DNA of 34,695 bases from a bacterium (lineage in GTDB: Bacteria; UBA4055). Position 1 is the first letter of the stretch. Each line of letters starts with the position of its first letter. The stretch is from positions 1 through 34,695 of the forward strand of contig JAKQBN010000024.1 of the NCBI GenBank assembly GCA_029559475.1, read 5' to 3'. Position numbers and translations under genes: made by a program. The notes beneath the pieces were generated by a model. The model saw only the letters and a list, made by a program, of their open reading frames with translations. It searched no databases and was not told where the DNA came from. Positions 589 through 31,759 of the stretch are shown here, piece after piece.

Positions 589-1119
589 TTATTCTCTTGC
601 GTAAGCTACGAGATCTTTTATATTATCTTTAGACGTGAAATCGACGGGATTATCCATAGCAGCGAGCATTCCTTTTTCATCAGGCGTGAGTTCCCGCTTC
701 TTTCCTTTGGAAAGTATGCTTGCACGGAGAAGCTTCATCAGGAAACGGTCGAACATTCCCATTTTTGTCATATTCAAACCGCCTCTTAAATAAAAGAACT
801 TAAGATGAGCCTGCTCCTCGGGCGTAAAATTCTTGTTTTTGACCTTGTTTACGGCATTTTCTCTCCATGGAGTTGAGCCGGATGCGAAGATAATGAGTTT
901 TTTTGATCTCAGTCTGCTGAAATTAATTTTTATGAACCTGATTCCGTTGATACCGGCTGCGTAGAGTCCTCCTCCATATATAATGGTATCGTAATTATCT
1001 ATCATGGATCTGTCGAATTTATCCATCGGGAAAAGGTCCGCGCCTAGTTCCTGAGATATCCATTCAGCATATTTTTGCGTAAACCCTGTTTTAGAGCTAT
1101 AAATGACTGCGCTTTTCAA
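589..1119 (-). CDS. flavodoxin-domain protein (HemG-like)
   Basis: 176 residues. The N-terminus has a flavodoxin FMN-phosphate loop (YSSKTGFTQKYA, residues 7-18) and a second loop at YGGGLYAAGI, as in flavodoxins and the HemG-type protoporphyrinogen dehydrogenase, whose length is close (about 180). It should be a soluble, FMN-binding electron carrier or small flavoenzyme. The start is TTG at 1119; I accept it because GGAGG lies just upstream and the flavodoxin motif follows directly. It is the last gene of the Ehr operon, 19 bases after the Ehr-2 small subunit, so it may exchange electrons with that complex; this is inference. No haem-synthesis gene is nearby, which argues weakly against a true HemG role. 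No clear terminator is seen between its stop and the CRISPR array. Confidence 0.8.
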   Translation of the reverse strand: MKSAVIYSSKTGFTQKYAEWISQELGADLFPMDKFDRSMIDNYDTIIYGGGLYAAGINGIRFIKINFSRLRSKKLIIFASGSTPWRENAVNKVKNKNFTPEEQAHLKFFYLRGGLNMTKMGMFDRFLMKLLRASILSKGKKRELTPDEKGMLAAMDNPVDFTSKDNIKDLVAYARE

Positions 1120-1138: not shown

Positions 1139-1885
1139 TTATCTTCCGATGAGATCCAGCAATCCATTTTCAATATTGAGCGGGTGAGGGGGATTTCCAG
1201 GAATATAAAGGTCAACTTTTATGCGGTTTAGAAATTCCCTGTTGATAGCTTTGCTGCCTGCGAATATGCCGCCGCTGATGGCGTCAGTGCCGCAGAGTAT
1301 AAAAACTTTAGGCTCAGGAACAGCTTTCCATGCAATTTCAACAGCTTCAGCCATGTTCTCTGTGATCGGTCCTGTAACGAGAATTCCGTCTGCGTGACGC
1401 GGTGAGGCTACGAATTCTATTCCGTATCTCCCGATGTCGAAATTGGCGTTTCCGCATGCGTTCAACTCAAATTCAGCTGAATTGTCTCCGCCTGCAGATA
1501 CCTGTCTCAGCTTGAATGAGTTTTTGAATATATTTTTTATTTCCGGTCTGATCGCTTCCCTGTCGATTTCAACCGGAATATTTTCGCCTTCTTTAACTAT
1601 AAGGTGCTCAGGTATATTTGTGGATAATTTATAATCTGTTGTAAAGGTTATCTTTTCAGGGAATCGGAATGCGCACTCTCCGCAGAAAGTACATTTGCCA
1701 AGATCGATCCTGACCGGGTTTGCCGAAATAGCCGATACAGGGCATAATTCAACAAGTTTATTTTCATCCACTTTAACGGTGCTGATCTCAGGCCTGCCTC
1801 TAAAAGGTTCCGGTAGCTGAACGTTTTTCGGATCAGTTATGAACTGTTTTCCGTTATGTATTATTATCTTTATTTCGTCAAGCAT
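1139..1885 (-). CDS. Ehr-2 small subunit: ferredoxin domain fused to NuoB/HycG-like domain
   Basis: 248 residues. Residues about 40-80 form a reduced ferredoxin domain with Cys48 (LCPVSAI) and Cys65, Cys68, Cys71, followed by FP where a second cluster would need CP; this suits one [4Fe-4S] cluster. Residues about 125-248 match the NuoB / hydrogenase small subunit fold (FVASPRHADG at 158-167, PGNPPHP at 229-235). The four ligands of the proximal cluster (N2 in complex I) are all replaced: Asp134 and Ala137 for the CxxC, Asp201 in GTDA where GDCA is usual, Asn231 in PGNPP where PGCPP is usual. In E. coli formate hydrogenlyase the ferredoxin and small subunit are separate genes, so this is a fusion. 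Starts at ATG with AAGGA upstream, 11 bases after the large-subunit gene. Cytoplasmic, attached to the membrane arm. Electron partner unknown. Confidence 0.9.
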   Translation of the reverse strand: MLDEIKIIIHNGKQFITDPKNVQLPEPFRGRPEISTVKVDENKLVELCPVSAISANPVRIDLGKCTFCGECAFRFPEKITFTTDYKLSTNIPEHLIVKEGENIPVEIDREAIRPEIKNIFKNSFKLRQVSAGGDNSAEFELNACGNANFDIGRYGIEFVASPRHADGILVTGPITENMAEAVEIAWKAVPEPKVFILCGTDAISGGIFAGSKAINREFLNRIKVDLYIPGNPPHPLNIENGLLDLIGR

Positions 1886-1896
1886 GATAATTTTCC

Positions 1897-3420
1897 TTAA
1901 AGGTCATAGCCGCAGTAACTTAAATTGTAGCTTTTATTGTTTATCGGAAAATCGGATATTTCCAGATTTCTGAGAGAAAGTTCAAGAGCTTTCCAATTGT
2001 GCATCGACGGATCTTTTATTTTATAAAAAATCATATTTCCGGTATCATCAGTAAGTGCGCAGTGGCATATCTCACCGCGCCAACCCTCTGTAAGAGAAAT
2101 GGCAAAGCTGTCCGGTTTAAGTACAATTTCATTTACCGGTTTTTCTGAAGGAGTATCGAAATTTGCATTGGCTAAGATATTTCTGATCCAAGCTATAGAT
2201 CTCTTAATTTCTTTCCTGCGAAGCAGAAAGCGTGAAAAAACATCACCTTTAGGTAATATTACAGGCTCGATAGGAAATTGTATATAGCCTGCGAACGGGT
2301 GTGAAGAGCGTATGTCGCGGTTCAAATTTGCCATGCGGGCAGCCATACCTACCGCTCCTATAGACCTTATGAGGTCTTCATTTACCGTTCCGATATCATC
2401 GAACCGGTTTTGAACGCTTGAAAGTTTGTATGTTCTGTGCGCAAGTTCAACGAACTGAAATTCAAATTTCGTAAGTACTTCAAGTAACCTTTTTTTATGT
2501 TCATTCGTGAACGGCAGGTTTATTCCGCCGGGTCTGATCATACCTTTGCCGAGCCTGTTCCCGCACCATGACTGAGTATAGTTGATGATGCCGGTACGAA
2601 GTATCGCGAAAATATTTGCGCCTAGGCCGTAAGAAATGTCGGTGCATAAAGCGGCTATATCACCTACATGAATCGCTATTCGTTCAAGTTCAAGCGCAAT
2701 AGCCCGTTCGACCATTAGCTGTCCGCTTATTTTGATATCTCCCAAAGATTCTATAAGCTGGGCGAACGCAAGGCTGTGTCCGACAGCGGTATCTCCCGCA
2801 ATTGATTCAGAAAGGATAACGCGCTGGAGAAGCTGCTTTTTTTCAAGAATCAGAGCTTCAACTCCGCGGTGCTGCCACCCGAGCTGGATCTCAAGGTGAA
2901 GCACATTTTCACCATTGCAGATAAACCTGAAATGACCGGGCTCAATTATACCTGCGTGAACAGGTCCCACTCCCACTTCGTGTAGTTCATGGCTGTTGAT
3001 CTTGTAGAACGGATAATCGTTCACTTTCAAATTCCTGTCAAATCTGTCGTGCGGAAAGCGCACAGGTTTCAGCCATGGATGATCTTTGAAAGCTATACCG
3101 TAATTTTCAAAAATTTCGCGCTCGAAAATGTGCAGCGCAGTAATTTTAGGAGTCAATGAATTCAGTTGTTTAGGTTCAGAAGAAGCTAAGAAATGCGATA
3201 ATAAAATAATATCGCCTGCAGTATCATCAGCTATCGAGGCGATGAATCTCAGGCCGTTCTTATAAGGAGAAGCAAAATAGTTTACGCAGTGGTTCTCTTT
3301 CTTTGTCAGCAAATTTAAAGCAAGATCACTGAATTCGCTGTATGTATAAACAGGTATCAGGTTCAGATCGGTCGCCGAATTGTTCTTTACTCTACAGATA
3401 TTTTCAAATTTTTCGTTCAT
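1897..3420 (-). CDS. Ehr-2 large subunit, NuoCD/HycE-like, without [NiFe] ligands
   Basis: 507 residues. An N-terminal NuoC-like domain (about 1-145, with HIFEREIFENYGI) is joined to a NuoD / hydrogenase-3 large subunit-like domain (GVGPVHAGIIEPGHFRFICNG onward), the fusion seen in HycE and HyfG. In the hydrogenases the L1 site reads RICGIC; here the aligned segment is SESIAGDTAVGH (about residues 203-214), with no cysteine. The C-terminal L2 site (DPCxxC) is replaced by LSYCGYDL, with a single Cys503, and the protein ends there, as NuoD does, without a cleavable tail. The protein should therefore not bind a [NiFe] centre, which defines the Ehr class. The neighbouring stop and start codons are 6 bases apart. 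By eye it is very roughly 60% identical to the Ehr-1 copy in the conserved core. Confidence 0.93.
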   Translation of the reverse strand: MNEKFENICRVKNNSATDLNLIPVYTYSEFSDLALNLLTKKENHCVNYFASPYKNGLRFIASIADDTAGDIILLSHFLASSEPKQLNSLTPKITALHIFEREIFENYGIAFKDHPWLKPVRFPHDRFDRNLKVNDYPFYKINSHELHEVGVGPVHAGIIEPGHFRFICNGENVLHLEIQLGWQHRGVEALILEKKQLLQRVILSESIAGDTAVGHSLAFAQLIESLGDIKISGQLMVERAIALELERIAIHVGDIAALCTDISYGLGANIFAILRTGIINYTQSWCGNRLGKGMIRPGGINLPFTNEHKKRLLEVLTKFEFQFVELAHRTYKLSSVQNRFDDIGTVNEDLIRSIGAVGMAARMANLNRDIRSSHPFAGYIQFPIEPVILPKGDVFSRFLLRRKEIKRSIAWIRNILANANFDTPSEKPVNEIVLKPDSFAISLTEGWRGEICHCALTDDTGNMIFYKIKDPSMHNWKALELSLRNLEISDFPINNKSYNLSYCGYDL

Positions 3421-3426
3421 AATCCT

Positions 3427-4854
3427 CTAATTTATAGATTGTACGATTGAATTCATAAGCTCCTTAACGAATGCGGGTGTAAAGTAAGCAAGATAAAAGA
3501 CAAGCCCAAACAGGATGATCTGCGAAACAGGCTCGTATTTATTGATTATTGCTTTATCTTTCTGAAAATTATCCGGCAGTTTTCCGTAAAGCAGCTGCAT
3601 AGAATATTTGAAGATCACATACATTACTACCGAAAGTAAAACAATAATAGCTATAGCTATGTAGCTGTAACCTTCAGAAAAGAGAGCTCTCAGTATAAGA
3701 TATTCGCTTACGAACAAACCTGACGGAGGCACTGCTGTCGCTGTCATCAGACCGAGCAGATAAACAATCGCGCTGAATCCATTCTGTTTCATATAGTCGC
3801 CGGAATCAGGTATCCATCCGCTCCGGTAATATGCCCTGATCTGTCCGTAATGTAAAAATATCCCTGTTTTTGCAAGTGAGTGAAGCATAATATGCAGAAT
3901 GGCCGCATACAGACCCGGTTTTCCCAGTGATAAAGCTATTATGACAAGAGCCATATGTTCCATACTTGAATAAGCGAACATTCTGCTGAACCTTTTAACT
4001 TTGAAAAGCTGAACTGACATGATAACGAGACTGGTCATCCCGATAATGAGCAGAACGCGGTTGGCCCACACTGCGGACTCTGTTCCGGAAATTATACAAT
4101 AAAGTCTGAAGATAGCGACAAACCCGCCGTTCAGCACTGCAGTTGAAGTCAGCGCATTGACAGGGAAAGGAGCGATGGTCTTTGCGTCAACAGTGGCCGG
4201 ATATAGCGGGAAAATATTCATTTTGATACTGTAGCCTGTAACTAAAAGCAGGAAAGCCGCTTTCATGAAAAGCGGATCGATCAATTGGGCTACAGCTTGA
4301 AGATGTGTGTAAGACAATGATGAATCCTGCGCGTTACTTACTTTTACTGACAGAAGGAGTATTCCTATAAAAGCAAGAACGATCCCGAATGAAGAAATAA
4401 AAAGGAATTTCCATGCGGCTTCCAGTGCATTAGGATATCTTTCATGATATATAAGAAATGTAATGGCGACAGTAGTTATCTCAAGGCTGACCCATACAAT
4501 AACGATATTGTCAGCGAAATATATGCTGCTTAAAGCCGTTGAAAGAATGATTATCAAGCTTATAAATCTTCCTTTCATTTTTCTGTCATGTATATATCTT
4601 TCAAGATAATATCTGCTGTGCCAGAAAACAGGGATAAGTATTATGCTCAGCAGTCCGTTAAGCAGTATGCCAAGGCTGTCGAATTTAAAATAAACCGAAT
4701 CAGAGCTGTTCAGATTCAAATAAGCATAAACTGAAAGCGAAATGTGAAGAAGGCTGTAAACTGAAGCTGCGGAATAATTTATGCTCCGGTTCTTATTCGA
4801 AAAGACCGATAAGGCTAAAAGAGCTGATATTATAAAGAAGATCAATAGTGCCAT
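3427..4854 (-). CDS. Ehr-2 antiporter-like membrane subunit (HyfF/NuoN-like)
   Basis: 475 residues, almost wholly hydrophobic with about 13-14 membrane segments, of the Mrp antiporter / NuoL-M-N family. The conserved glutamate of the fifth helix is seen in VWVSLEITTVAITF and the lysine of the broken seventh helix in GYSIKMNIFPLYP. A further lysine is in LHSLAKTGIF. These residues carry protons in complex I. The usual histidine motif after helix 7 (P-H-x-W-L-P) is changed to PLYPATVDAK, unlike the Ehr-1 copy (PMHTIGIDAN), so this copy has drifted further. Lies one base from the preceding gene. It is likely the second ion-translocating subunit of the complex, in the cytoplasmic membrane. Confidence 0.9.
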   Translation of the reverse strand: MALLIFFIISALLALSVFSNKNRSINYSAASVYSLLHISLSVYAYLNLNSSDSVYFKFDSLGILLNGLLSIILIPVFWHSRYYLERYIHDRKMKGRFISLIIILSTALSSIYFADNIVIVWVSLEITTVAITFLIYHERYPNALEAAWKFLFISSFGIVLAFIGILLLSVKVSNAQDSSLSYTHLQAVAQLIDPLFMKAAFLLLVTGYSIKMNIFPLYPATVDAKTIAPFPVNALTSTAVLNGGFVAIFRLYCIISGTESAVWANRVLLIIGMTSLVIMSVQLFKVKRFSRMFAYSSMEHMALVIIALSLGKPGLYAAILHIMLHSLAKTGIFLHYGQIRAYYRSGWIPDSGDYMKQNGFSAIVYLLGLMTATAVPPSGLFVSEYLILRALFSEGYSYIAIAIIVLLSVVMYVIFKYSMQLLYGKLPDNFQKDKAIINKYEPVSQIILFGLVFYLAYFTPAFVKELMNSIVQSIN

Positions 4855-4855
4855 T

Positions 4856-5485
4856 TTAATCTTTCAGCTTATTTAAACTTGAGGTTGACATATTCCCAAA
4901 AGCGCTTCCTATCTTATCAATGAATATTCCGATGATGAGAACAGCTATAAGAATATCGATCAGAACCGCCATACTTACAAGGAACGGAAATTCGCCGCCG
5001 ACCGCCAGAGAAAGCAGGAACGCTCCGTTCTCAACGATCATAATTCCTACTATATGATTGAAGATGTTCTTGTGTACTATAGTGAAATATATCCCGCCGA
5101 GAATGGTTGAAAGAGCGATCGCAAGAAATTTCACATCGACGAAATGATTTCTGATTGAATAAGCGGTAAAGAAACTCGCTATGATAATTGCTGTTATTAT
5201 CAGCACGGAATAAAAGAACGGTATATAATTTTCCACAAGCCTGTTCAGGTTGTTAGTCCGCCTGATCCTGTTTAGGAACCGGGGAATTATTATAGCCTTG
5301 ACTATCAGAGTCTCAAGAAGAATAAGGATCAGACCGAGAAGATTTATCTCGATAAGGTTTATAAAGGCGATTATAAAGAGAAGCGTTCCCTGAACAGCAA
5401 GAAGGTTGATATGTTTCTCAACTCTTTCAGAAAGAAAGAAATATATAAGCGTGCAGGCGAATATGATAAGAAGTACTATCATCAT
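4856..5485 (-). CDS. Ehr-2 small membrane subunit (HyfE-like)
   Basis: 209 residues with about six or seven hydrophobic segments. Size, order in the operon and the segment VENGAFLLSLAVGGEFPFLVSM, about residue 150, match HyfE / HycC-associated subunits that hold a NuoK / MrpC-like helical domain; the membrane glutamate of the ENGAF motif is typical. It would sit between the NuoH-like subunit and the antiporter-like subunits. Its ATG overlaps the stop of the NuoH-like gene by four bases (ATGA), suggesting translational coupling. Partner in Ehr-1: 12113-12727. Confidence 0.87.
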   Translation of the reverse strand: MMIVLLIIFACTLIYFFLSERVEKHINLLAVQGTLLFIIAFINLIEINLLGLILILLETLIVKAIIIPRFLNRIRRTNNLNRLVENYIPFFYSVLIITAIIIASFFTAYSIRNHFVDVKFLAIALSTILGGIYFTIVHKNIFNHIVGIMIVENGAFLLSLAVGGEFPFLVSMAVLIDILIAVLIIGIFIDKIGSAFGNMSTSSLNKLKD

Positions 5486-6402
5486 GGCAGCATACCCACC
5501 TTTTCATGAATTATCAGGATCGTAAGAAATACTACTATTGAAAGTGCCGACAAAGTGATTATCCACTGCGCATTCCTCATCATTTTATTGCGGGCTCTGA
5601 ATGATTCCACAAACGCCACGAGAACAGCATAGATTATCTGGACTATCGGGAAGAATGCCAGCTGAACGAAATAATTATTCTGTATAGGCAGAACCAGATT
5701 GAAGATCAGGCTGCCGAATATCGCGAACTTAAGGCCGCCGGCAAGCTGAATAAGTCCCAGCTCAAATCCGCTGTGGTCAAGCACCATTACTTCGTGCACC
5801 ATAGTAAGCTCAAGATGCGTATTAGGGTCATCAACAGGAAGACGGCTGTTCTCGATCATCGAGAGCCAGAAAATCAGATATATCGACAGGGCAGAAACAA
5901 AATAGGTCAGGGCTGATTCGACATACAGGCTGCTGAAAATATCATAGAATGAATTATGTCCGGTATGCAGAGCTATTGAGCCCATTATGATAAAGAATAC
6001 CGGTTCGGCGAGAAGTGAATAAAAGGCCTCGCGGTTAGCTCCCATGCCTTCAAATCCGCTCCCGGTATCCATGGCTGCTATAATCATGATGAATCTTCCG
6101 GATGCCATAAGATAAGCGAACATTACAAAGTCGCCTTCAAATGAAAAAAGGGCTTTATAGTTGCCTACCGGAATGAAAAATACAGCTGTCAGGAGGGTAG
6201 AGAAATAGATTATCGGCGCTAGCTGAAACAGAAAACCTGTCGTCCGGCTGTAAACATTGCCTTTTTTCATCAGCTTGATTATATCGTAGAAATGCTGCAT
6301 AACACGGGGGCCTTTTCTTGCCGCGACCTTAGCTTTTACAACGGACACTATTCCGGGGAAGATCAGACTTGTGATCAATATTAAAACTAAACCTACACCC
6401 AT
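5482..6402 (-). CDS. Ehr-2 NuoH/HyfC-like membrane subunit
   Basis: 306 residues, about eight membrane segments. It belongs to the NuoH / HycD / HyfC family, which anchors the peripheral arm and carries ions towards the antiporter-like subunits. Signature stretches are ARKGPRVMQHFYDIIKLMKK near the N-terminus, GSGFEGMGANREAFYSL in the middle and ENSRLPVDDPNTHLELTMVH with HEVMVLDHSG after it. The acidic residues expected in this loop and helix are kept. Overlaps HyfE-like by four bases and lies one base from the NuoL-like gene upstream. Confidence 0.93.
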   Translation of the reverse strand: MGVGLVLILITSLIFPGIVSVVKAKVAARKGPRVMQHFYDIIKLMKKGNVYSRTTGFLFQLAPIIYFSTLLTAVFFIPVGNYKALFSFEGDFVMFAYLMASGRFIMIIAAMDTGSGFEGMGANREAFYSLLAEPVFFIIMGSIALHTGHNSFYDIFSSLYVESALTYFVSALSIYLIFWLSMIENSRLPVDDPNTHLELTMVHEVMVLDHSGFELGLIQLAGGLKFAIFGSLIFNLVLPIQNNYFVQLAFFPIVQIIYAVLVAFVESFRARNKMMRNAQWIITLSALSIVVFLTILIIHEKVGMLP

Positions 6403-6403
6403 G

Positions 6404-8386
6404 CTAAATTATCCCGAATATTGAAATTATAGTAATTACGATCACAAATACGATCGCGTACAAAAGGTAATGCTGAATATTTCCTGTCTGAAAAACTGCG
6501 ATCTTTTCCATAAAAGATAAAAGTCCGCCAACCGGTCTTGAAATAAGATTATCATCAAAAACATCAGAGCTTTCCGTTTTAAAATATGTTTCGGAGGGAA
6601 AGATCTTTTCCTTTGTCAAATACCTGAAGTGTTTTTTTACGCCGACAAGTAATCTTGCCTTCATTATAATGTATTCAGCATAAGAGGTAGCGCTGTACTG
6701 ATGAAGCGCGGGATCAGAACCCGTATAGGCGCAGCCCCAGGTAGGTCCGATGTCAGTGTGCCTGACTTTTGACAGCTTCAATTTTATTAAAAGCAGTATC
6801 CCGATAAATACAATCAGAAGGCTGAGCGACAGCGATATTCCCGACATTGTACCGGCCATATCTCTTAGAGAGCTTGTATCATCAACAATAACTCCTGCTA
6901 CAAAAGCCATCGGCCTTAACATTAAAAAAGGCATAACGCCGATCGCAATAATTAATATTCCGATTATGAATTTAGGAAAAAGCATAGAACTTCTTACCTC
7001 ATGGCTGTGCCTGGTTTTATCACTTCTCACAGTACCGAGAAAGATAATGCTGAATATTTTGGTAAAGCAGAATACCGCAAGACCGCCGATAACAGCTAGA
7101 GCTACAATTCCTGCCAGAAGAGTGACGCTCAGAATAGAATCGCTTACCATTAGTGATTTGAATAATCCTGTGTAAATCAGAAATTCTGATATAAATCCGT
7201 TGAAAGGAGGCAGACCGGAAATAGCAGCTGCTCCAAGCAGAAATAAAACTGCTGTCGCCGGCATTTTCTTCATCAAACCGCCCAAATTTTCAATATTTCT
7301 GGTATGCGTCTGCTGATAAATACTTCCCGCGGTATAAAATAACAGCGATTTGAAAAGCGCATGATTAAGCACATGAAGAAGTCCGCCGGCAAAACCAAGG
7401 CTGGCAAGAACAGGATTATTAATTGCGAGTCCCATCACTCCAATTCCGATCCCGATCCCGATAATTCCGATGTTCTCTATGCTGTGATAGGCGAGAAGCT
7501 TTTTATAATCGTGCTGAACGATGGCGATTGCCACGCCGAATATTCCTGAAATAATGGAGATTATCAGGATAAAAACACCTATCGGCATCAGATCTGAATG
7601 AATATAGGTCAGCACTCTGACGATACCGTATATACCCATTTTTATAATGACTCCGCTCATGATGCCTGATATGTGAGACGGAGCAGCAGGATGGGCATGG
7701 ATCAGCCAGGTGTGAAGGGGGATAAATCCGGCTTTTATACCGAATCCTATGAAGAAGAGCAGAAAAACCGGAAATGAGGGGTAAGTTTTAAAATACTGTT
7801 CTAAGCTATCAAACCCTATATTCTGTCCGGTCGCAATACTGCAGATAATAAAAGCCGTGATTATAAAATAAAAGGCGACATGCATCTGAATAAGAAATTT
7901 TATTCCGGCATCTTTGTTTTCCTGTTTGTCCGATTCGAAAATGATAAGGAAGAAGGCTGCAACCGACATCAGCTCCCAGAAGACAAGAAAGCTGATCCCT
8001 TCGCGGAGCATTACTACCATCAGCATAGAAATGTGCAGAAGCAGAAAATTAAAATAGTGCCATGCCATCTCCAGCCTGGTCTTATCACGCAGATAAGGTT
8101 TCAGATAACCTTTAGAGTATAATGCGCCTGTAAGAATCGTAATATTAATCACAAAAATGAAAAATGCGGATAGACTGTCTATCACCAAGCTGACATCATT
8201 CCCGATCAGTTCAAAAAGATATATTTGAAGAGGGCCGATCCGGTTGAAAGACAGATACATCAGATATCCCGTCACCACTATTAAAAATATCTGCGTTACG
8301 AGCATCTGGTAGTACTGGGATCTTTTTGGTAAAGTAAAAATTCCGAGAGCAGAAAAAGTTATGATTATGAAAATGATTTCTTTCAT
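6404..8386 (-). CDS. Ehr-2 antiporter-like membrane subunit (HyfB/NuoL-like)
   Basis: 660 residues, similar in length to E. coli HyfB (about 670), with many membrane segments. The key glutamate of helix 5 is in FLVFWELMSV (about residue 137), the helix 7 lysine is in GFGIKAGFIPLHTWL (about 217), and HAL-FK (LNHALFKSLLF) and the SGLPPFNGF turn follow. The C-terminal third has a soluble stretch (GPTWGCAYTG, SETYF) and a last membrane helix, as in HyfB. It should translocate H+ or Na+. It begins 4 bases after the Ehr-1 small-subunit stop, so both Ehr copies are probably on one messenger. Confidence 0.94.
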   Translation of the reverse strand: MKEIIFIIITFSALGIFTLPKRSQYYQMLVTQIFLIVVTGYLMYLSFNRIGPLQIYLFELIGNDVSLVIDSLSAFFIFVINITILTGALYSKGYLKPYLRDKTRLEMAWHYFNFLLLHISMLMVVMLREGISFLVFWELMSVAAFFLIIFESDKQENKDAGIKFLIQMHVAFYFIITAFIICSIATGQNIGFDSLEQYFKTYPSFPVFLLFFIGFGIKAGFIPLHTWLIHAHPAAPSHISGIMSGVIIKMGIYGIVRVLTYIHSDLMPIGVFILIISIISGIFGVAIAIVQHDYKKLLAYHSIENIGIIGIGIGIGVMGLAINNPVLASLGFAGGLLHVLNHALFKSLLFYTAGSIYQQTHTRNIENLGGLMKKMPATAVLFLLGAAAISGLPPFNGFISEFLIYTGLFKSLMVSDSILSVTLLAGIVALAVIGGLAVFCFTKIFSIIFLGTVRSDKTRHSHEVRSSMLFPKFIIGILIIAIGVMPFLMLRPMAFVAGVIVDDTSSLRDMAGTMSGISLSLSLLIVFIGILLLIKLKLSKVRHTDIGPTWGCAYTGSDPALHQYSATSYAEYIIMKARLLVGVKKHFRYLTKEKIFPSETYFKTESSDVFDDNLISRPVGGLLSFMEKIAVFQTGNIQHYLLYAIVFVIVITIISIFGII

Positions 8387-8390
8387 ATTA

Positions 8391-9146
8391 TCATTTTCCG
8401 ATTAACCTCAATACTCCATTTATGAAAGTGAGAGGATGAGCCGGGTTGCCCGGTACATAAAGATCTACCGGGTATTTTTCCAAAAATTTTCTGTTCACAG
8501 CATGCGAATCAGCGAACATTCCGCCTGATATCGCGTCCGTCCCGACTAGGATAAGTACCTTAGGACCGGGTGACGCATCCCAGCAGATCTGCAGAGCTTC
8601 AGACATGTTCTCAGTTATCGGGCCTGTAATAACAATACCGTCCGCATGTCTTGGTGAAGCGACGAATTCAATTCCGTATCTGCCCATATCAAAGTTTACA
8701 TTACCGGCCGCATACAGTTCAAATTCGCAGGAGTTGTCTCCGCCGGCTGAAACCTGTCTGAGCTTCAAAGCATTTTTAAAAAGTTTCCTGACTTCAGGTC
8801 TGACAATATTTTCATTGAATTTGATTTCGGAATCGCCTTTTCTGACGATAAGATTATTTTTATCATTCGAAGCGATTTTGTAATCGTTAGTGAATGCTAT
8901 CTTATCAGGGTAAGCCAGAGCGCATTCTTTACAGAAAACGCATTTACCTATATCTATCCCGAACCCGTCTTCGGTCGTTATAGCATTCGACGGGCACAAT
9001 TTTTTAATTTTCTCCGTTTCCTGATCAGTCGGATCTTCTTTTATCACAGGTCTCCCTCTGAATAATGGCGTAAGTACGGCTGTTTTCAGATCAGGCACAT
9101 ACTGGATGCCGTGCTGTCTTAATATTTTGAGTTCTTTTATTATCAT
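8391..9146 (-). CDS. Ehr-1 small subunit: ferredoxin domain fused to NuoB/HycG-like domain
   Basis: 251 residues with the same plan as the Ehr-2 copy. One-cluster ferredoxin domain: Cys51 (LCPSNAI) plus Cys69, Cys72, Cys75; the place of the fourth cysteine of that run is Tyr79 before Pro80. NuoB-like domain from about 128: FVASPRHADG, PGNPAHP. Of the four N2-type ligands only Cys140 remains (GDNSCEFE); the others are Asp137, Asp204 (GTDA) and Asn234 (PGNPA), the same replacements as in Ehr-2. One cysteine alone cannot hold the cluster in the usual way. The gene is 12 bases after the large subunit gene. Confidence 0.9.
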   Translation of the reverse strand: MIIKELKILRQHGIQYVPDLKTAVLTPLFRGRPVIKEDPTDQETEKIKKLCPSNAITTEDGFGIDIGKCVFCKECALAYPDKIAFTNDYKIASNDKNNLIVRKGDSEIKFNENIVRPEVRKLFKNALKLRQVSAGGDNSCEFELYAAGNVNFDMGRYGIEFVASPRHADGIVITGPITENMSEALQICWDASPGPKVLILVGTDAISGGMFADSHAVNRKFLEKYPVDLYVPGNPAHPLTFINGVLRLIGK

Positions 9147-9158
9147 ATCAGTCCCTTT

Positions 9159-10673
9159 TTAAAGGTCATAGCCGCAGTAGCTTAAGTCAAAACTTTTATT
9201 GCAGATCGGAAAATCAGATATCTCCTGATCCCTTACCGCAAGGGCAAGCGCGAACCAGTTATGCATTGAAGGATCACTGATCTTGTAATGCATAATATTC
9301 CCCTTCTCATCAGTAACCGCAAAATGGCATAATTCGCCTCTCCAAGCTTCTACGATAGACGCTGAAAAACGATCCGGTTTGAGCTTGTAATTATAATCCG
9401 GTTTCAAATTCGATTTTTCAGTATATTCCCATTTTGAGAGAAGCTCGAAAATATATTTCACTGATTCTTTTGCTTCAAGATAACGCAGCATTCCGCGGGC
9501 AAGAACATCCCCTTTTTCCTGAATTACGACCTGAGGTCTATGATTTTTGAAATACTGGAAAGGATGGGTCGATCTGATGTCTCTGGGGATGCTGCAGGTT
9601 CTCGCGGCCATTCCGACAGCGCCTATTCTATAAGCCTGTTCAGTAGTCACGATCCCGATCTCGTCAAATCTTCCAAGTACGCTAGGCAGAGAATAAATTC
9701 TTTCTGCCATATCAAAATATCTTTTTCCCGAATCATTCAGAATTTTTTTTATCTCTTCAACTGTTCTATCATTCAGCGGATAATTAGTTCCGAACGGTCT
9801 TACAAGCCCTTTTCCGAACCTGTTCCCGCACCAGAACTGAGTCGTATTTATTATGGTCGTTCGAAGCGCTTCGCATACGACCTGACCGAGCTGATATCCG
9901 ACATCTGTGCATAAAGCTGCAGTGTCACCTATATGAATTGCTATTCTTTCAAGTTCAAGAGCTATGCATCTTTCTATCTGAAGATCTTCGGGAGCTTCAA
10001 AATCTGCAAGCGACTCCATCAGTTGGCTGTGAGCAAGCGCATTTCCGACAGCTGTATCGCCGCCTGTGCTTTCTGAAAGAACGCACAGTTTGATCGGATT
10101 ATCATTCTGAAGCATCAGATTTTCAATCCCCCTGTGCTGATATCCAAGATGGATCTCAAGATGAAGTACCTTCTCTCCGTTGCAGATGAACCTGAAATGA
10201 CCCGGTTCGATCACTCCTGCATGAATAGGACCGACTCCGACTTCGTGAAGCTGGTCACTCATCATTTCGTAGAACGGATAATTATTCATAACTTTAATTT
10301 TGTCAGCTCTATTTTCAGAATATCTGACCGGTTTTGCCCACGGGTGCCCTTCAAAAGTGATCCCGAAGTTCTCAGCTATTTCCCTTTCAAAAATATGAAG
10401 CTGCGGAAATTCGGGTGTAAGAGAATCGAGCGCTGTTATCCCTGCCTTCAGTTCGTGTGATGACAAATAAATTTTCCCATCGCTGTCCTTAGCTATCGCA
10501 CAGATAAATTTCAGCTTATCATCTTTTCTGAATGCATAATAAGACAGGCAGTGGTTGTCCGAATCAACAAAGTACGATCTGAGCATATTTGCAAAATACT
10601 TATAACTCAGTACTGGTATATCCGCAAGATTTACCGAATCTGAATTATTGTATGTTTCGAGAAATAATTTCAT
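9159..10673 (-). CDS. Ehr-1 large subunit, NuoCD/HycE-like, without [NiFe] ligands
   Basis: 504 residues. NuoC-like N-terminal domain (HIFEREIAENFGI) fused to a NuoD / HycE-like domain (GVGPIHAGVIEPGHFRFICNG; IALELERIAIHIGDTAALCTD; WCGNRFGKGLVRPFG). The L1 site reads SESTGGDTAVGNAL with no cysteine, and the protein ends in LSYCGYDL, so at most one of the two L2 cysteines is kept. It lacks the C-terminal extension that hydrogenase maturation proteases remove. A catalytic hydrogenase role is therefore unlikely. GPxH, near the quinone- or substrate-site histidine of complex I NuoD, is retained. Paralogue of 1897-3420. Confidence 0.93.
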   Translation of the reverse strand: MKLFLETYNNSDSVNLADIPVLSYKYFANMLRSYFVDSDNHCLSYYAFRKDDKLKFICAIAKDSDGKIYLSSHELKAGITALDSLTPEFPQLHIFEREIAENFGITFEGHPWAKPVRYSENRADKIKVMNNYPFYEMMSDQLHEVGVGPIHAGVIEPGHFRFICNGEKVLHLEIHLGYQHRGIENLMLQNDNPIKLCVLSESTGGDTAVGNALAHSQLMESLADFEAPEDLQIERCIALELERIAIHIGDTAALCTDVGYQLGQVVCEALRTTIINTTQFWCGNRFGKGLVRPFGTNYPLNDRTVEEIKKILNDSGKRYFDMAERIYSLPSVLGRFDEIGIVTTEQAYRIGAVGMAARTCSIPRDIRSTHPFQYFKNHRPQVVIQEKGDVLARGMLRYLEAKESVKYIFELLSKWEYTEKSNLKPDYNYKLKPDRFSASIVEAWRGELCHFAVTDEKGNIMHYKISDPSMHNWFALALAVRDQEISDFPICNKSFDLSYCGYDL

Positions 10674-10681
10674 CTGCTGCT

Positions 10682-12109
10682 CTAATTAAATAAAATTTTC
10701 ACAGTCTGTTCTATCATGCCTTTTAAAAAAGGAGGCTGATAAAAGCAGAGAACGATTATTATAGTCAGAAAAATGTACTGGCTGACAGTTTCATACGGGC
10801 TTACTTTTTCATCAGCAACGAAATCCGGTTTTTCTCTCGGAGGTGAGAATACTACATGCATTACTCTGATTGTCGTGGCATAAATGATACAGCAAAGGAG
10901 AAAAGCTGCTGATATCAGAACGAACCAGTTCCCGTTCAGCACAAGGGCCTTAAAGATCATCATTTCCGTAAGGAACAAACCTGAGGGAGGAAAGGCCATG
11001 ATGCTGACGGCCCCGATTATCAGCACAAGAGCGCCTGCAGGAAATGTTTTCAGGTACCTTCCGCTGTTATCAAGCCATAACGTGCCCTGAACCCTGTAAA
11101 GCTGGTTCATTTGAATAAAAAGACTGGATTTTATGAACGAATGCAAAATTAGAAGAAGTATCGCGGCATAATACCCGTTCCCACCTACTCCGAGAGCTAT
11201 TGCCACAAGCCCCATATTTTCAAGTGTGGAATACGCGAACATTCTTTTCAAATGCTTTGCTTTCAGCATATATCCTGCGGCGGTGAGCAGAGATAACAAT
11301 CCTACAATAATAAGTATTTTATTCATCCATTCAAATATATCCGATCCGGATAGGGCTCCATAAACTCTTAAAAGCGTAATAAACCCCATGTTAACCAGCC
11401 CTGATGATATCAAAGCTCCAATAGGCGACGGAGCAACAGCATTTGCGTCTATACCGATCGTGTGCATAGGAAATATTTCCATTTTTGTGCCGAAACCGAC
11501 AAATATGAAAAGAAAGGCTATTTTTAAGTAAAGTGGCTTTGCATTGACAGCGACTTCTGAGATCGAAGCAAATGAAAGGTCGTTGTACGGCGTTCCGTTC
11601 ATCATCATAGAAATAAATAAGATCCCGATGAACGCAAGAGTTATACCCACAGAGCTTAAAAAAACATATTTCCAGGTGGCTTCGAGTGAAACAGTTGTCC
11701 TGTCATGATATATAAGACCTGCTACGGCAAGAGTTGTCGCCTCTGCGAAGATCCATAGAGCCGCAAGGTTATTTGAAAGATAAGCTCCGGTCATACAAGT
11801 TACAAGCAGAATAAGCGAGGAATGATAAATGTTGTATTTCCTTAAAGCATCTTTTGATACATAAATAAAGCCATGATAAATCACTGCGGTCACTATAATA
11901 GACAGAATAGACAGGAATAGAACTGCAAGGTTATCATAAGTAAAATAGATCAGGTCAGTGATTCCGATCCTTGTCCATGTATAAACAGTAAAGGAAATAT
12001 GTAATATTCCGAAAAATATAACTATTATCTTAGTAAGTGTCTTACTTTTGGAAAAGAAGATCGAGAAACCTAAGAGCGCGGATATTATAAAAAACAAATT
12101 CAATATCAT
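10682..12109 (-). CDS. Ehr-1 antiporter-like membrane subunit (HyfF/NuoN-like)
   Basis: 475 residues, the same length as the Ehr-2 paralogue, with about 13-14 membrane segments. It has the helix 5 glutamate in LWIFAEATTLAVAG, the helix 7 lysine in GFGTKMEIFPMHT followed by APSPIGALISSG, and a lysine in LHSFIKSSLF. These are the charged residues of the Mrp / NuoL-M-N proton channels. A predicted integral membrane subunit of the ion-translocating arm. Eight bases separate its stop from the large-subunit start. Confidence 0.9.
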   Translation of the reverse strand: MILNLFFIISALLGFSIFFSKSKTLTKIIVIFFGILHISFTVYTWTRIGITDLIYFTYDNLAVLFLSILSIIVTAVIYHGFIYVSKDALRKYNIYHSSLILLVTCMTGAYLSNNLAALWIFAEATTLAVAGLIYHDRTTVSLEATWKYVFLSSVGITLAFIGILFISMMMNGTPYNDLSFASISEVAVNAKPLYLKIAFLFIFVGFGTKMEIFPMHTIGIDANAVAPSPIGALISSGLVNMGFITLLRVYGALSGSDIFEWMNKILIIVGLLSLLTAAGYMLKAKHLKRMFAYSTLENMGLVAIALGVGGNGYYAAILLLILHSFIKSSLFIQMNQLYRVQGTLWLDNSGRYLKTFPAGALVLIIGAVSIMAFPPSGLFLTEMMIFKALVLNGNWFVLISAAFLLCCIIYATTIRVMHVVFSPPREKPDFVADEKVSPYETVSQYIFLTIIIVLCFYQPPFLKGMIEQTVKILFN

Positions 12110-12112
12110 TCA

Positions 12113-12727
12113 TCAGTCCTTAAGCTGGGTAAGCTGGTCAATATTAGGCTTTATCTTCATTCCGAAGAATCCGAGGATAAGAACGCCTACAAAAATATCG
12201 AGAAGGGTTCCGATATTTATCATCATGGGCATTTCACTTCCGACAGCTATGGAAAAGAGAAAAGCCGCATTTTCGAGTACAAGAAATCCGATAAGGTGTG
12301 AGATTATCAGTCTGTGAGTTACTATAATTATCAGCCCGGAGAACATTGTAAAGAAAGCTATAGTAAGGAAAACCGTGTCAACATACGGATTTTTAAGAGT
12401 ATAAGCCATAAAGATGCTTATAAATAGGGATATTATTATTAGCAGAAGTTCATAAAAACCAGAAAGGGCTTCGGTATTAACTTTTTCTACCCTGGTATTT
12501 TTTACGATAACATTTATCATATATGGTACGACCAGACCTTTAAAGAAAAAAGTCTCTGAAGATATAAAAATCAGATCTCCGATGCTGGCTTTATGAAGTT
12601 CAGCCAGGGTAATTCCGAAAAGAATGAATCCCTGCAGCCCCAAAAGCCTTGCATAAACGACGAACCTGTCAGTCACAGCCAGATAAACAATAGTTATAGC
12701 GAACATCACTGAAAGATAATTTATCAT
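12113..12727 (-). CDS. Ehr-1 small membrane subunit (HyfE-like)
   Basis: 204 residues with six or seven hydrophobic segments and the same VLENAAFLFSIAVGSEMPMM motif as its paralogue at 4856-5485. Positioned between NuoH-like and HyfF-like genes, as in hyf operons. Its start directly abuts the stop of the NuoH-like gene at 12728. Likely contributes the NuoK / MrpC-like part of the channel. Confidence 0.87.
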   Translation of the reverse strand: MINYLSVMFAITIVYLAVTDRFVVYARLLGLQGFILFGITLAELHKASIGDLIFISSETFFFKGLVVPYMINVIVKNTRVEKVNTEALSGFYELLLIIISLFISIFMAYTLKNPYVDTVFLTIAFFTMFSGLIIIVTHRLIISHLIGFLVLENAAFLFSIAVGSEMPMMINIGTLLDIFVGVLILGFFGMKIKPNIDQLTQLKD

Positions 12728-13639
12728 TTAAACGATTTTCCCTGTAATTATAATGATAATTATGAAAGCAATAAATGAAACGGCTGTCAAAGTAAGAATG
12801 AAATGAGGATTTTTACTCATCTTATTTCGTGCCCTGAATGATTCCAGCAGGCCGATTAGAACTGCAAACGATATTTGTATTAGAATGAACAGAATGATCT
12901 GTAAGAATATGTTCAGATCAGACGGTATCAGCAAGTTGTATATAATCGATCCGTAAACGGCAAATTTAAGATACGATGCAATGTGTATCAAAGCTTTATC
13001 AAAACCGCTGTTATCAAGAATCATAACTTCATGGATCATAGTAAGTTCAAGATGAGTTTTAGGATCGTCAACCGGGAACCTGCTGTTTTCTATCATGGCT
13101 ATCTGAACGAATAAATATACTCCGATTATGCTGAATATAAGCACGAAATCGCTCTGAGAAATATAAAATGATGTAAAGATATCGGAAAAAGATGTGTATC
13201 CTGTCAGCATAGCCAAAGTTGCAAGAAGTATAAAGAAAGCAGGTTCTACCAGCATTGAGAAAAGGGCTTCTCTGTTCGCGCCCATTCCCTCAAATCCGCT
13301 GCCTGTATCCAACGCGGAAATTATAATAAAGAATTTGCCTATAGCGAGGAGATATGAGAAGTAAACAAAATCGCTGTCAAAATCAAAAAAAGCGTGTTCA
13401 TTCGCAAAAGGTATAAGAAGCATCGCGCAAATAATTGCCGCAAGCCCGATAGTCGGCGCTATCTGAAATATAAAGCTGGCAGTACTACTGAAAATACTGT
13501 CTTTCTGAAGGAGAACTTTCAGATCGTAAATCGGCTGAAAAACTCCAGGTCCCTTTCTTCCTGACAGTATGCTTTTTGTTCTAAGAATTATTCCCGGAAA
13601 AATTAAAGCTGTTAGTATTGTTAAAATTATTCCTGTCAT
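12728..13639 (-). CDS. Ehr-1 NuoH/HyfC-like membrane subunit
   Basis: 303 residues, about eight membrane segments. Signature stretches GRKGPGVFQPIYDLKVL, GSGFEGMGANREALFSM and ENSRFPVDDPKTHLELTMIH followed by HEVMILDNSG identify the NuoH / HycD / HyfC family. It connects the cytoplasmic redox module to the membrane arm. One base from the NuoL-like gene upstream and none from the HyfE-like gene downstream, so co-translation is probable. Confidence 0.93.
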   Translation of the reverse strand: MTGIILTILTALIFPGIILRTKSILSGRKGPGVFQPIYDLKVLLQKDSIFSSTASFIFQIAPTIGLAAIICAMLLIPFANEHAFFDFDSDFVYFSYLLAIGKFFIIISALDTGSGFEGMGANREALFSMLVEPAFFILLATLAMLTGYTSFSDIFTSFYISQSDFVLIFSIIGVYLFVQIAMIENSRFPVDDPKTHLELTMIHEVMILDNSGFDKALIHIASYLKFAVYGSIIYNLLIPSDLNIFLQIILFILIQISFAVLIGLLESFRARNKMSKNPHFILTLTAVSFIAFIIIIIITGKIV

Positions 13640-13640
13640 A

Positions 13641-15638
13641 TCAGATAAGCTCGAAATAAGTTAGTACGAGTGCTGCAATAATGAATAAGAATATGTAAAG
13701 AATATAATGATGGATCTGACCGGTCTGCATTACAGCGATCTTTTTTAGAAGTTTAAGAATGAATTCTTTCGGATAGCTGATAATATAGTCATCGAAAATA
13801 TCTTTTGATACTGAGCTGAAACTTTTCTTTTCGGGAAATATATCGGTAGCCATAATTTCTTCAGATAATTTTTGTGATCTCAACACAGGATTAGCAAGCT
13901 CGATAAAGTTGTCTGAGTATGAATCAGCGGTGTACTGATGCTTCGATGTTCCGGCAGTGTAGCCGCATCCCCATGTTGGCCTGAGATCAGTTTTTTTCGA
14001 TCTGAAAATATTACGTCTGAAAGAGAAAAGAGCGGCTGTAATAATTATGAAAAGTCCGCTTAAAATATTTACCTGTAAAAGATTATTAAGCACGTTAGTG
14101 ATGATCGCGCTGTCATAAGCAGTATTTGTGAAAGTTTCTGAAACAATATTGAAAACAGGTACAACCACAATCGATGAAGCAAGGCCGATAACCATTATGA
14201 CGGATATAATGATGTATCCAGGTAGAATCATAGACATATTTACTTCTGTAGCTCCGCGAACCCTTATTGACCTCTCCTGACCGAGAAATGTTATTCCGTA
14301 CGCTCTAGTAAAACAGAAAAGGGCGAGTCCCCCGATCAGTGAAAGACCGATTATGCCTGACAATATAATGAAAGAATCATACAAACCTGATCCTGAAATA
14401 GACATGAACATACCGGAATATAAAAGATATTCTGATACGAAACCGTTAAATGGCGGCAGACCGCAGATGGCCAAGGACCCTATAAGGAAAATAAGAGCTG
14501 TATGAGGCATTTTTTTTACCAGTCCCCCTAGAACCTCCATATCTTTTGTGTGTGTGGCATGATTGACTGATCCGGCGGCAAAGAAAAGCATCGATTTAAA
14601 CAGCGAATGGTTCAATATATGAACAAGAGCGCCGCTGAAACCAAAGAGCACAAGTATTTGATTTTTCATTGCCATTCCGACAACTCCAAGACCTATTCCG
14701 ATCCCGATTATGCCGACGTTTTCAATAGTAGAATATGCCAGCATCTTTTTTATATCGCGCTGGGTTATAGCGGACATAATTCCCATGATTCCTGTAATCA
14801 GAGAAATTCCAAGTATTATTATTCCTATAGTCATAATATCGGACTGAAGTGCTGAAACGACTCTAAAAATACCGTAAAATCCCATCTTTATCATTATACC
14901 AGACATTATTCCGGATACATGAGAGGGAGCTGAGGGATGCGCAAGAGGAAGCCATGTATGGAGAGGTATAAAACCTGCTTTCATGCCGAATCCGATAAAG
15001 AACATCAGAAAAAGAATTGTGTTGGAATGATCTGAAAAATACGGTTTGAGCGAAGCAAAACCCATAACGCCGGTTCCGTTCTCCGCGATCATAAAAGCAA
15101 TAAGTATGAATAACATTCCTATATGCATCTGGATAAGGTAGTTTATGCCGGTCTTCATTATCGTCCGGTTCTCTGCGTTGAAAATAACAAGCATGAATGA
15201 TGAAATCGCCATTATCTCCCAGAGGATTATGAAAGCAGTTCCGTCCTGAAGCATAACGACCATGCACATCGAAATGTAAAGCCAGAAATATGAAAAGTAA
15301 TGTATTGAAAAACTCAGGGGGTATTTTATTCTGTAATAAGGCGAGAGGTATTTATATGCGTAAATGAACCCCGTGAGAGAAGTAAAGTTAATAGCGAGCA
15401 GAAAGAAAGAGGATAGTTTATCAATGTAGAACGAGAAATCAAAATTCAGAAATTCGAAATTCAGATCAACAATTAACGGCAGATCATCATAAAAAAGAGC
15501 TTTTATTCCCCATGACGAAGTTACAAACATTGCAATCAGCAATAATATCATAGTGAACAGGTACTTCAACCTGTTCGGAATGAAGTAAATTCCGACAGAT
15601 AATAATAATATAGCTGAAAACAATCCTGAAAACATCAT
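13641..15638 (-). CDS. Ehr-1 antiporter-like membrane subunit (HyfB/NuoL-like)
   Basis: 665 residues, NuoL / HyfB family. Helix 5 glutamate in FIILWEIMAISS (about residue 140), helix 7 lysine in GFGMKAGFIPLHTWLPLAH (about 219), LNHSLFKSMLFFAAGS and ICGLPPFNGF are all present, so the proton pathway looks intact. As in the paralogue, a soluble loop with PTWGCGYTAG precedes the last helix. Its ATG overlaps the DUF502 stop by four bases (15635-15638), tying DUF502 to the operon. Confidence 0.94.
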   Translation of the reverse strand: MMFSGLFSAILLLSVGIYFIPNRLKYLFTMILLLIAMFVTSSWGIKALFYDDLPLIVDLNFEFLNFDFSFYIDKLSSFFLLAINFTSLTGFIYAYKYLSPYYRIKYPLSFSIHYFSYFWLYISMCMVVMLQDGTAFIILWEIMAISSFMLVIFNAENRTIMKTGINYLIQMHIGMLFILIAFMIAENGTGVMGFASLKPYFSDHSNTILFLMFFIGFGMKAGFIPLHTWLPLAHPSAPSHVSGIMSGIMIKMGFYGIFRVVSALQSDIMTIGIIILGISLITGIMGIMSAITQRDIKKMLAYSTIENVGIIGIGIGLGVVGMAMKNQILVLFGFSGALVHILNHSLFKSMLFFAAGSVNHATHTKDMEVLGGLVKKMPHTALIFLIGSLAICGLPPFNGFVSEYLLYSGMFMSISGSGLYDSFIILSGIIGLSLIGGLALFCFTRAYGITFLGQERSIRVRGATEVNMSMILPGYIIISVIMVIGLASSIVVVPVFNIVSETFTNTAYDSAIITNVLNNLLQVNILSGLFIIITAALFSFRRNIFRSKKTDLRPTWGCGYTAGTSKHQYTADSYSDNFIELANPVLRSQKLSEEIMATDIFPEKKSFSSVSKDIFDDYIISYPKEFILKLLKKIAVMQTGQIHHYILYIFLFIIAALVLTYFELI

Positions 15639-16246
15639 TCTTTTACGACTCCTCCGGTAAGCAGGAACTGCATGGCTTTTTCGGTTTTCATGGGAAGATT
15701 CCTTATCTGTTCTGTGGTCACTATCATCAGAAAACCGCTCGTCGGGTTCGGTGTTGTGGGTATAAAGACCGAGAATCTTTTTACAGTCGGATCAGGATTG
15801 AACTCAGGTGTTACTTCTCCAGTATTGAATCCGATCGTCCATATATTTTTTGAAGGGTACTCGATCAGTACGGGATTGGAAAAGAAGGATTTTTTATTCG
15901 TCGAGAAAGAATCGATAACCTGCCTTACAGCTTTGTAGATAGGTCTTAATCCCGGGATGTGCATGAAAAATGAATCGGTAAGTGAAAGCAGAAGTTTTCC
16001 CATTACGGTTCTCATGAGTATCCCGAACCCCATGATCGCGAAGAACATTACTGTTATAGTCGCGATCTTGATAATGAACTGATGAGTATTCAAATACTCC
16101 TGTGGGATAAAGAAAATGAAATCTTCGATAATGCCTTCCATGAACCGGTAAACGAGCTTTATCACCCATATAGTTACTATCAGGGGTAATAGCGCGAGAA
16201 GACCCTGTATGAAATAGGAAAAAGCGGTTTTTGATAATCTTTTCAT
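15635..16246 (-). CDS. DUF502 family membrane protein
   Basis: 203 residues. Two hydrophobic segments at about 11-33 and 55-82, then a conserved soluble part (LTDSFFMHIPGLRPIYKAVRQV, VFIPTTPNPTSGFLMIV) typical of DUF502 proteins, whose function is not established. It is the first gene of the Ehr operon and overlaps the next gene by ATGA, so it is co-translated with Ehr-1. It may be an assembly or membrane-organising factor, or only a passenger; the sequence does not decide. A promoter candidate lies about 35 bases upstream. Confidence 0.88.
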   Translation of the reverse strand: MKRLSKTAFSYFIQGLLALLPLIVTIWVIKLVYRFMEGIIEDFIFFIPQEYLNTHQFIIKIATITVMFFAIMGFGILMRTVMGKLLLSLTDSFFMHIPGLRPIYKAVRQVIDSFSTNKKSFFSNPVLIEYPSKNIWTIGFNTGEVTPEFNPDPTVKRFSVFIPTTPNPTSGFLMIVTTEQIRNLPMKTEKAMQFLLTGGVVKE

Positions 16247-16308: not shown

Positions 16309-16363
16309 GTTGTTTTTAATGTATAATTGGTATAAATTTTACTATCTTTAATACGGAGTGAAC

Positions 16364-21892: not shown

Positions 21893-21974
21893 TCAGGGAT
21901 AAAGGATTTTCTGCATAAAAAAATATTCAGCATCAAAAAAAATACTGATAATAGTATCAGCGGTTATTTTATTT

Positions 21975-28263: not shown

Positions 28264-28788
28264 TTACTTCTCTTCGGCGTGATAATGGGTAGCGTTCTTT
28301 GAGAGCTTCCCTTTCAGTTCCTTGTGATAGAAATCGTAGGTCATAGGCTGGAGATCATGATTTAGGATCTCAGCTTCTGTAACCCTGCCGATAAATACTG
28401 TATGAGAACAGCAGTCATGGCTGTTGATCACTTCACACTCTATGTATCCGCACATTTTATCTTTGATGTACGGTGCTCCGTTTTTTCCGAGTTCATAGCT
28501 GCAGTTCGCAAATTTATCATAGTTTCTTCCGGTCCTGAAACCGAACGGTCCGATATCGGTCATCTCGCACCTGTCGGAAATTATCGAGACAGTGAAAACT
28601 CCGCTTTCCTTAATGCATTCGTGCGTATAGTTATTTTTAGATATACTTATAAGCATTGTTGCAGGATCAGGTGATATTTGCACAACAGTATTCGAGAGCT
28701 GAGCATTGATATTATCGCCTTTCTTTGAAGATACGATATACATACCGTAAGTGACTTTGAACAAGGTTCGAAAATCCATTTTATTCAC
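28264..28788 (-). CDS. flavin reductase domain protein (FMN-binding split barrel)
   Basis: 174 residues of the flavin reductase-like family: VTYGMYIVSSKKGDNINAQL, SPDPATMLISISKNNYTHECI, GVFTVSIIS and FGFRTGRNYDKF. The same domain forms the N-terminal half of high-molecular-weight rubredoxin, which passes electrons from NADH through rubredoxin to flavodiiron protein. Here a separate rubredoxin and the flavodiiron protein are in the same operon, so this may be the NAD(P)H-side reductase; that is inference. It overlaps the preceding gene by eight bases and is the last gene of the operon. Confidence 0.87.
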   Translation of the reverse strand: MNKMDFRTLFKVTYGMYIVSSKKGDNINAQLSNTVVQISPDPATMLISISKNNYTHECIKESGVFTVSIISDRCEMTDIGPFGFRTGRNYDKFANCSYELGKNGAPYIKDKMCGYIECEVINSHDCCSHTVFIGRVTEAEILNHDLQPMTYDFYHKELKGKLSKNATHYHAEEK

Positions 28789-29755: not shown

Positions 29756-29769
29756 TTTATTCTCCGGCT

Positions 29770-30222: not shown

Positions 30223-30244
30223 ATCCGTCTCCGTTTTATATCAT

Positions 30245-30817: not shown

Positions 30818-30833
30818 GTTGTCTCCTGTAAAA

Positions 30834-31211: not shown

Positions 31212-31236
31212 GATGATCTCCTTTATGTTATCGTTT

Positions 31237-31749: not shown

Positions 31750-31759
31750 GTTCCTCTCC

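Follow-up and report, generated by a model that had tools for sequence, protein, structure and literature searches.

Energy-converting-hydrogenase-related (Ehr) complexes combine large and small subunits related to those of group 4 hydrogenases and complex I with antiporter-like and NuoH-like membrane subunits. Ehr complexes without [NiFe] motifs are already well described, and their function is not known (PMC6349859, PMC10284858, PMC10432482, PMC7304191, PMC7894505). The defining features, i.e., this subunit composition, the absence of the [NiFe]-binding CxxC motifs and a gene order of L-H-E-F-CD-FdB that is conserved across phyla, were all found in both of the Ehr copies carried by the 34,695-nucleotide stretch of bacterial DNA analyzed here (hereafter, the window). 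The Ehr of Geomonas (L099) consists of the same six subunit types, encoded in the same order, and lacks the [NiFe] ligands as well. It retains, however, the proximal (N2-type) cluster and both ferredoxin-type clusters, whereas the complexes described here have lost N2 along with one of the ferredoxin-type clusters. Further, the Geomonas system has two NuoL genes, whereas in the window each set has a single NuoL gene and two entire sets are stacked. Retention of the proximal cluster is a property of the Geomonas branch and lies outside the published Ehr definition. We regard the missing proximal cluster, which, like the loss of one ferredoxin-type cluster, had gone unseen in an initial annotation of this DNA, as the result that matters most.

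The 12 open reading frames were called on the minus strand as two six-gene sets, A (1139–8386) and B (8391–15638), separated by a spacer of 4 bp (8387–8390). In both sets, the 5´–3´ order was NuoL-like, NuoH-like, HyfE-like, HyfF-like, NuoCD-like and ferredoxin–NuoB fusion, with adjacent genes overlapping by up to 4 bp or separated by up to 12 bp. Subunit families were assigned with Pfam and NCBIfam for all of set A and for the fusion protein and large subunit of set B (FdB_B and CD_B); the remaining four genes of set B were typed by similarity to set A and by family alignments. Set B thereby comprises a NuoL/HyfB-like antiporter subunit (13641–15638, 665 aa), which keeps the strict Glu, Lys and His residues of its family, a NuoH-like subunit (12728–13639, 303 aa), a HyfE-like subunit (12113–12727, 204 aa), a HyfF-like antiporter subunit (10682–12109, 475 aa), a NuoCD-like large subunit (9159–10673, 504 aa; PF00346, 3.8e-30, and PF00329) and a ferredoxin–NuoB fusion (8391–9146, 251 aa; PF01058, 7.1e-20). 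The corresponding set A products are a NuoL/HyfB-like antiporter subunit (6404–8386, 660 aa; NCBIfam hydrogenase 4 subunit B, 4.7e-144), a NuoH-like subunit (5482–6402, 306 aa; PF00146, 1.4e-27), a HyfE-like subunit (4856–5485, 209 aa; NCBIfam hydrogenase 4 membrane subunit at 4.8e-12, under the model cut-off), a HyfF-like antiporter subunit (3427–4854, 475 aa; Pfam/NCBIfam), a NuoCD-like large subunit (1897–3420, 507 aa; PF00346, 1.1e-26) and a ferredoxin–NuoB fusion (1139–1885, 248 aa; PF01058, 1e-20). These open reading frames and family matches bear out the initial description of two complete tandem sets in identical order, 4 bases apart, and the copies are, as also stated there, clearly diverged, with 34–57% identity between A and B per gene.

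The genome to which the window belongs (G000) comprises 2.28 Mb at 92% completeness, and its Complex1_49kDa matches were confined to sets A and B. The same tandem, with the sets in the same order, was present in a second species of the genus, represented by a separate metagenome-assembled genome (G002). Given the low identity between A and B, the locus is not explained by an assembly repeat, and this divergence together with the recurrence in G002 ruled out the artefact that the initial annotation had entertained. Contamination was rejected as well, based on that recurrence and on another gene of the contig, which has homologues with 63–70% identity in genomes of the family.

Charged residues of the membrane arm were scored when conserved in at least 80% of sequences in each of the four membrane subunit families. 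Nearly all were present in both copies, except at S290 in the set A HyfF-like subunit, a position at which 94% of the family have Lys, and at a small number of mild substitutions, and the membrane arms thus look intact from their sequences. The dN/dS values relative to G002 were 0.006–0.09 across all twelve genes, and both sets look functional and are under strong purifying selection.

To locate the ligand positions in the large subunit, a profile of 40 large subunits was aligned to HycE. The L1 site, where hydrogenases carry CxxC, reads E205, A208, D210 and T211 in set A (2788–2808, minus strand) and E201, G204, D206 and T207 in set B (10053–10073, minus strand), with the two cysteine positions corresponding to A208/T211 and G204/T207, respectively. 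The L2 site and C-terminus read S501-Y-C503-G504-Y-D506-L507 in set A (1900–1920, minus strand) and S498-Y-C500-G501-Y-D503-L504 in set B (9162–9182, minus strand), and the two L2 cysteines of HycE align with S501/G504 and S498/G501. All four [NiFe] ligand positions are therefore replaced in both proteins. Aligning the large subunits, which the initial annotation had proposed as a check, revealed no intact CxxC at L1 or L2 and confirmed the replacement of the L1 motif reported there. The reading of L2 as LSYCGYDL with one cysteine was right as to sequence, but that cysteine (C503 in A, C500 in B) lies one residue off the ligand position.

Both large subunits stop three residues past the last L2 position, at what we take, by our own count, to be the Arg that immediately precedes the HycE cleavage site; they terminate where hydrogenases are cut to maturity. 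HypD is needed for building the [NiFe] cofactor. It was not found in any of 13 genomes from the window's small phylum; controls, positive ones among them, gave the expected results. With the ligands replaced and no HypD found in 13/13 genomes, neither Ehr complex should bind [NiFe], as had been claimed initially; neither the four Cys ligands nor the Hyp machinery of a group 4 [NiFe] hydrogenase was found.

The closest structural resemblance was to formate hydrogenlyase-1 and -2 (Hyc and Hyf, group 4a). An AF2 model of CD_B (pLDDT 89) had HycE as its top match (7z0s_E, Z 41.3, rmsd 2.6, 489 residues aligned), and the NuoB part of an FdB_B model (pLDDT 92) matched HycG (7z0t_G, Z 18.6, rmsd 2.2, 138 aligned). 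According to these models, the cytoplasmic arm retains the hydrogenase fold, and the HyfB/E/F-like membrane subunits are likewise shared. Hyc and Hyf, however, have four [NiFe] cysteines plus the N2 ligands, whereas all the [NiFe] cysteines and the N2 set are replaced here; unlike in Hyc and Hyf, the C-terminal extension for cleavage is absent from sets A and B and HypD was not found in the genome.

In the small subunit, alignment to MbhJ and HycG showed that the proximal-cluster Cys positions are occupied by Asp-Ala-Asp-Asn in set A (D134, A137, D201 and N231; 1193–1486, minus strand) and by Asp-Cys-Asp-Asn in set B (D137, C140, D204 and N234; 8445–8738, minus strand). The ferredoxin part has four of eight cysteines left, so that one of the two ferredoxin-type clusters is gone. 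The ligands of the sole retained [4Fe-4S] cluster are C48, C65, C68 and C71 in set A (1673–1744, minus strand) and C51, C69, C72 and C75 in set B (8922–8996, minus strand); we take them to correspond to those of the second cluster in ferredoxins with two clusters, at the N6b position of complex I. These four cysteines were invariant in 78/78 small subunits, whereas the proximal set was intact (CCCC) in 36 of the same proteins and had been lost from the other 42.

Almost all of the proximal losses (41/42) fell into one mostly Bacteroidota clade, in which the loss held for all 41 scored members; Ehr proteins outside it, including those of Geomonas, keep the proximal cluster. The remaining loss was found in a distant Ehr (L027, 7246–7992; ligands DAGD), for which the tree needs a second change and which is probably an independent event. 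Among the 42 proteins, Asp was found at position 137 in 40 and an acidic residue at position 204 in 40, and Cys140 was missing in 15. Because even this leftover cysteine is dispensed with in 15/42 proteins, it is very unlikely, on sequence grounds, that a cluster would be held at the former proximal site. Small subunits could be sorted into three grades, with both ferredoxin-type clusters and N2 (14), one and N2 (22), and one without N2 (41). One exception (L053, 1950–2720) has lost the proximal cluster (DDHS) with both ferredoxin-type clusters present, which indicates that the two losses are separable.

No description of proximal-cluster loss in Ehr was found in the literature searched, whose scope did not extend to the defining paper (Marreiros 2013), and the N2 loss may already have been remarked there. 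The tandem is a genus-level peculiarity, and the N2-less Ehr branch is the broader point. For complex I, the central question still open is how redox chemistry at N2 is linked to the pumping of ions. A widespread, selected relative that has a whole pump and in which N2 has given way to Asp/Asp/Asn is a natural experiment for finding out which elements of this coupling require N2.

The overall architecture and the charged membrane residues are shared with respiratory complex I (NuoB, NuoD, NuoH, NuoI and NuoL), whereas the NADH module, N2, N6a and the quinone-site Tyr of that enzyme are all absent here. Like sets A and B, MBS is a complex-I-family pump without [NiFe]; it keeps two [NiFe] cysteines and uses a three-Cys proximal cluster as catalyst (PMC7684303). 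Of the four proximal cysteines, sets A and B have 0 and 1 left, respectively, and thus do not possess such a cluster. These comparisons bear on a further reading, in which Ehr would reduce quinone or sulphur in the manner of complex I or MBS and by a novel mode of binding. The antiporter arm, which is as in complex I, and the large-subunit fold, which in the CD_B model is also near NuoD (Z 37–38), would fit such an enzyme, but the NuoD quinone-site Tyr position aligns with Gly in these large subunits and the cluster that serves as the MBS catalyst is precisely the one that is lost, which makes a reductase of this kind quite improbable.

About even credence is given to a joint model in which two separately derived clusters of the mostly Bacteroidota type were stacked and encode ion-translocating oxidoreductases with a remodelled reaction. 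The model takes up the gene content, ligand losses, conservation and non-sister origin of A and B, and adds an electron path, a substrate and a direction that we infer. One genus would have acquired two complete Ehr clusters, which came to lie head to tail, flanked by a DUF502 gene and a flavodoxin gene. Each set would form a membrane complex of the complex-I/formate-hydrogenlyase kind, whose ion-translocating arm (NuoL, NuoH, HyfE and HyfF types) is intact. A soluble low-potential donor (ferredoxin, flavodoxin or the electrons of an NAD-type formate dehydrogenase) would reduce the retained [4Fe-4S] cluster, and the electrons, by an assumed path without N2, would act on some molecule in the former [NiFe]/N2 pocket. 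This pocket would be lined by conserved carboxylates, in set B those of D137 and D204 in the small subunit and of E201, D206 and D503 in the large subunit, and the reaction within it would presumably power the translocation of ions by way of NuoH and the antiporter subunits. For the N2-less Ehr branch as a whole, we propose more tentatively, and with less than even confidence, that it is a complex I superfamily class pumping or using ions without [NiFe], N2 or quinone chemistry, by means of a carboxylate-lined pocket.

The main rival to the oxidoreductase model is a non-redox, ion-driven function, in which N2-less Ehr would move ions or use a gradient, with the [4Fe-4S] cluster structural or sensory, similar to Mrp antiporters or DabA/DabB. 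In the DabA/DabB CO2 pump, a NuoL-like subunit drives CO2 hydration. The lack of both [NiFe] and N2, with Asp/Asp/Asn at the N2 ligand positions, the full set of ion-translocating residues and the failure to find a conserved redox partner gene are all consistent with this possibility, and the retained cluster could be structural only. Nevertheless, the invariance of the single [4Fe-4S] motif, pocket residues conserved like those of an active site and the relatives with N2, which are more plausibly redox-active, argue against it, and we regard it as somewhat unlikely.

The genes around Ehr were surveyed for conserved partners. No conserved partner gene was found near Ehr in 80 loci, nor across the N2-less clade; a helix-turn-helix-like cluster, associated with the CCCC type, occurred in 7 of the 80. 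A pairing of Ehr with an NAD-type formate dehydrogenase, for which the complex would be the membrane partner, has been proposed for Margulisbacteria and Saganbacteria (PMC6349859), and the Ehr of Geobacter is more abundant on formate (PMC7894505). In line with this, FdhA and an OxlT-family MFS transporter are encoded directly beside ehr-B in a genome of the same family (G009), NuoF and an OxlT-family gene (78% identical) lie 2.7 kb upstream of Ehr in L031 with FdhA on the same contig, and FdhA fragments and molybdate transport genes lie on the tandem's contig in G002. The window's genome itself has two TGA-containing FdhA genes. However, no Fdh-alpha match at 1e-20 was obtained in at least 5 of the 14 Ehr-bearing Bacteroidota genomes, so a formate dehydrogenase was rejected as an obligatory partner; the formate-gene linkage held at only about 3/85 Ehr loci, and the best model match of the OxlT-family transporter was a lactate transporter. 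The neighbouring loci thus give a limited hint of a link to formate metabolism, and a dedicated formate dehydrogenase partnership appears unlikely.

Other redox systems were also recorded. The formate dehydrogenase locus of the window's genome (L139, G000:C17, 4594–16880) encodes both enzymes, whose in-frame TGA probably specifies selenocysteine. A NuoEF fusion is encoded there too, as is an OxlT-like transporter that carries a long insertion rich in Ala, Glu and Thr. In G002, a group A6 [FeFe] hydrogenase with NuoE/NuoF partners, HydE, HydF and a HydG-like gene (G002:C48:4390-11568; L117, L024) adjoins the tandem; it was discarded as a partner, as it was not found in G000 or G009. A Rnf or Nqr complex is likely in the window's genome because one NQR2/RnfD/RnfE-family protein was detected. 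With no [NiFe] hydrogenase expected, one operon with two diverged copies provides a clean setting for identifying the reaction.

The origin of the pair was analyzed with an 88-row large-subunit tree and a 36-row six-subunit tree. In both, set A grouped with L030 (Acetofilamentum sp.) and then with L031, L070 and L032 (Ancylomarina), while set B grouped with G009 and then with L038; the nearest relatives of each set are thus different, Bacteroidota-dominated, single-copy Ehr clusters. Gene order, adjacency and the 34–57% identity would be expected had A and B arisen by tandem duplication within this lineage and later diverged, but the A/B split is the same in the large-subunit tree and forcing A, B and G009 together was rejected by the AU test (p = 0.00027), which makes such a duplication extremely unlikely. 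Hence, of the initial view of an old pair kept by selection, the selection held and the old duplication did not, as A and B are not sisters in either tree. The lineages of A and B are old, but as a pair they were observed in just two species, both belonging to a single genus: the synteny search suggested initially recovered the tandem in G002, and among 13 genomes of the window's phylum both sets occurred only in G000 and G002, with B alone in G009. The 14 Bacteroidota genomes had one Ehr copy each, G047 having in addition a distant homologue with 28% identity.

In the window, the tandem is flanked by genes for a DUF502 protein, the first of the operon (15635–16246, minus strand; PF04367, 5.3e-28), which is outside the Ehr complex, and for a flavodoxin-domain protein (589–1119, minus strand; PF12724, 2.5e-20), which probably is too. 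In G011, a flavodoxin gene with 59% identity to that of the window follows DUF502 after 5 bp, with no Ehr between them; both genes were therefore rejected as Ehr partners and are probably neighbours of the insertion site. No such flavodoxin gene was found around the G002 tandem. Between G000 and G002, synonymous divergence was 0.44–0.70 for A and 0.70–1.13 for B, compared to 1.24 to saturated for six flanking genes, a difference that could partly reflect codon bias. The apparently empty G011 site, the patchy occurrence in the phylum and the lower synonymous divergence of the cassettes strongly suggest that the tandem is a laterally acquired, stacked insertion, with the empty site being a single comparison from another genus. 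No donor genome with the A+B tandem was found, and a search for plasmid carriage of close relatives gave only matches below 60% identity, the ten listed being at 31–40%. Separately, a Cytophagales metagenome-assembled genome (L073, 9989–11509) has a solitary Ehr large-subunit gene beside a peroxiredoxin-like gene, with no other ehr genes within 10 kb.

Finally, other features of the window were noted. A CRISPR array with at least seven repeats of 37 nt (CTTCGCGCCCGGAATCCATTAAAACAAGGATTGAAAC), approximately 74 nt apart, is located at the contig edge (1–540). At 16358–24218, a very large gene for a lipoprotein-like product (1844 aa) precedes one resembling that for penicillin-binding protein 1C, and the two look, by eye, like an alpha-2-macroglobulin/PbpC pair. 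Rubrerythrins, ferritin, and flavodiiron-like and flavin reductase-like proteins are encoded at 28264–32941, in what appears by eye to be an oxygen-defence cluster that is partly conserved in G002.
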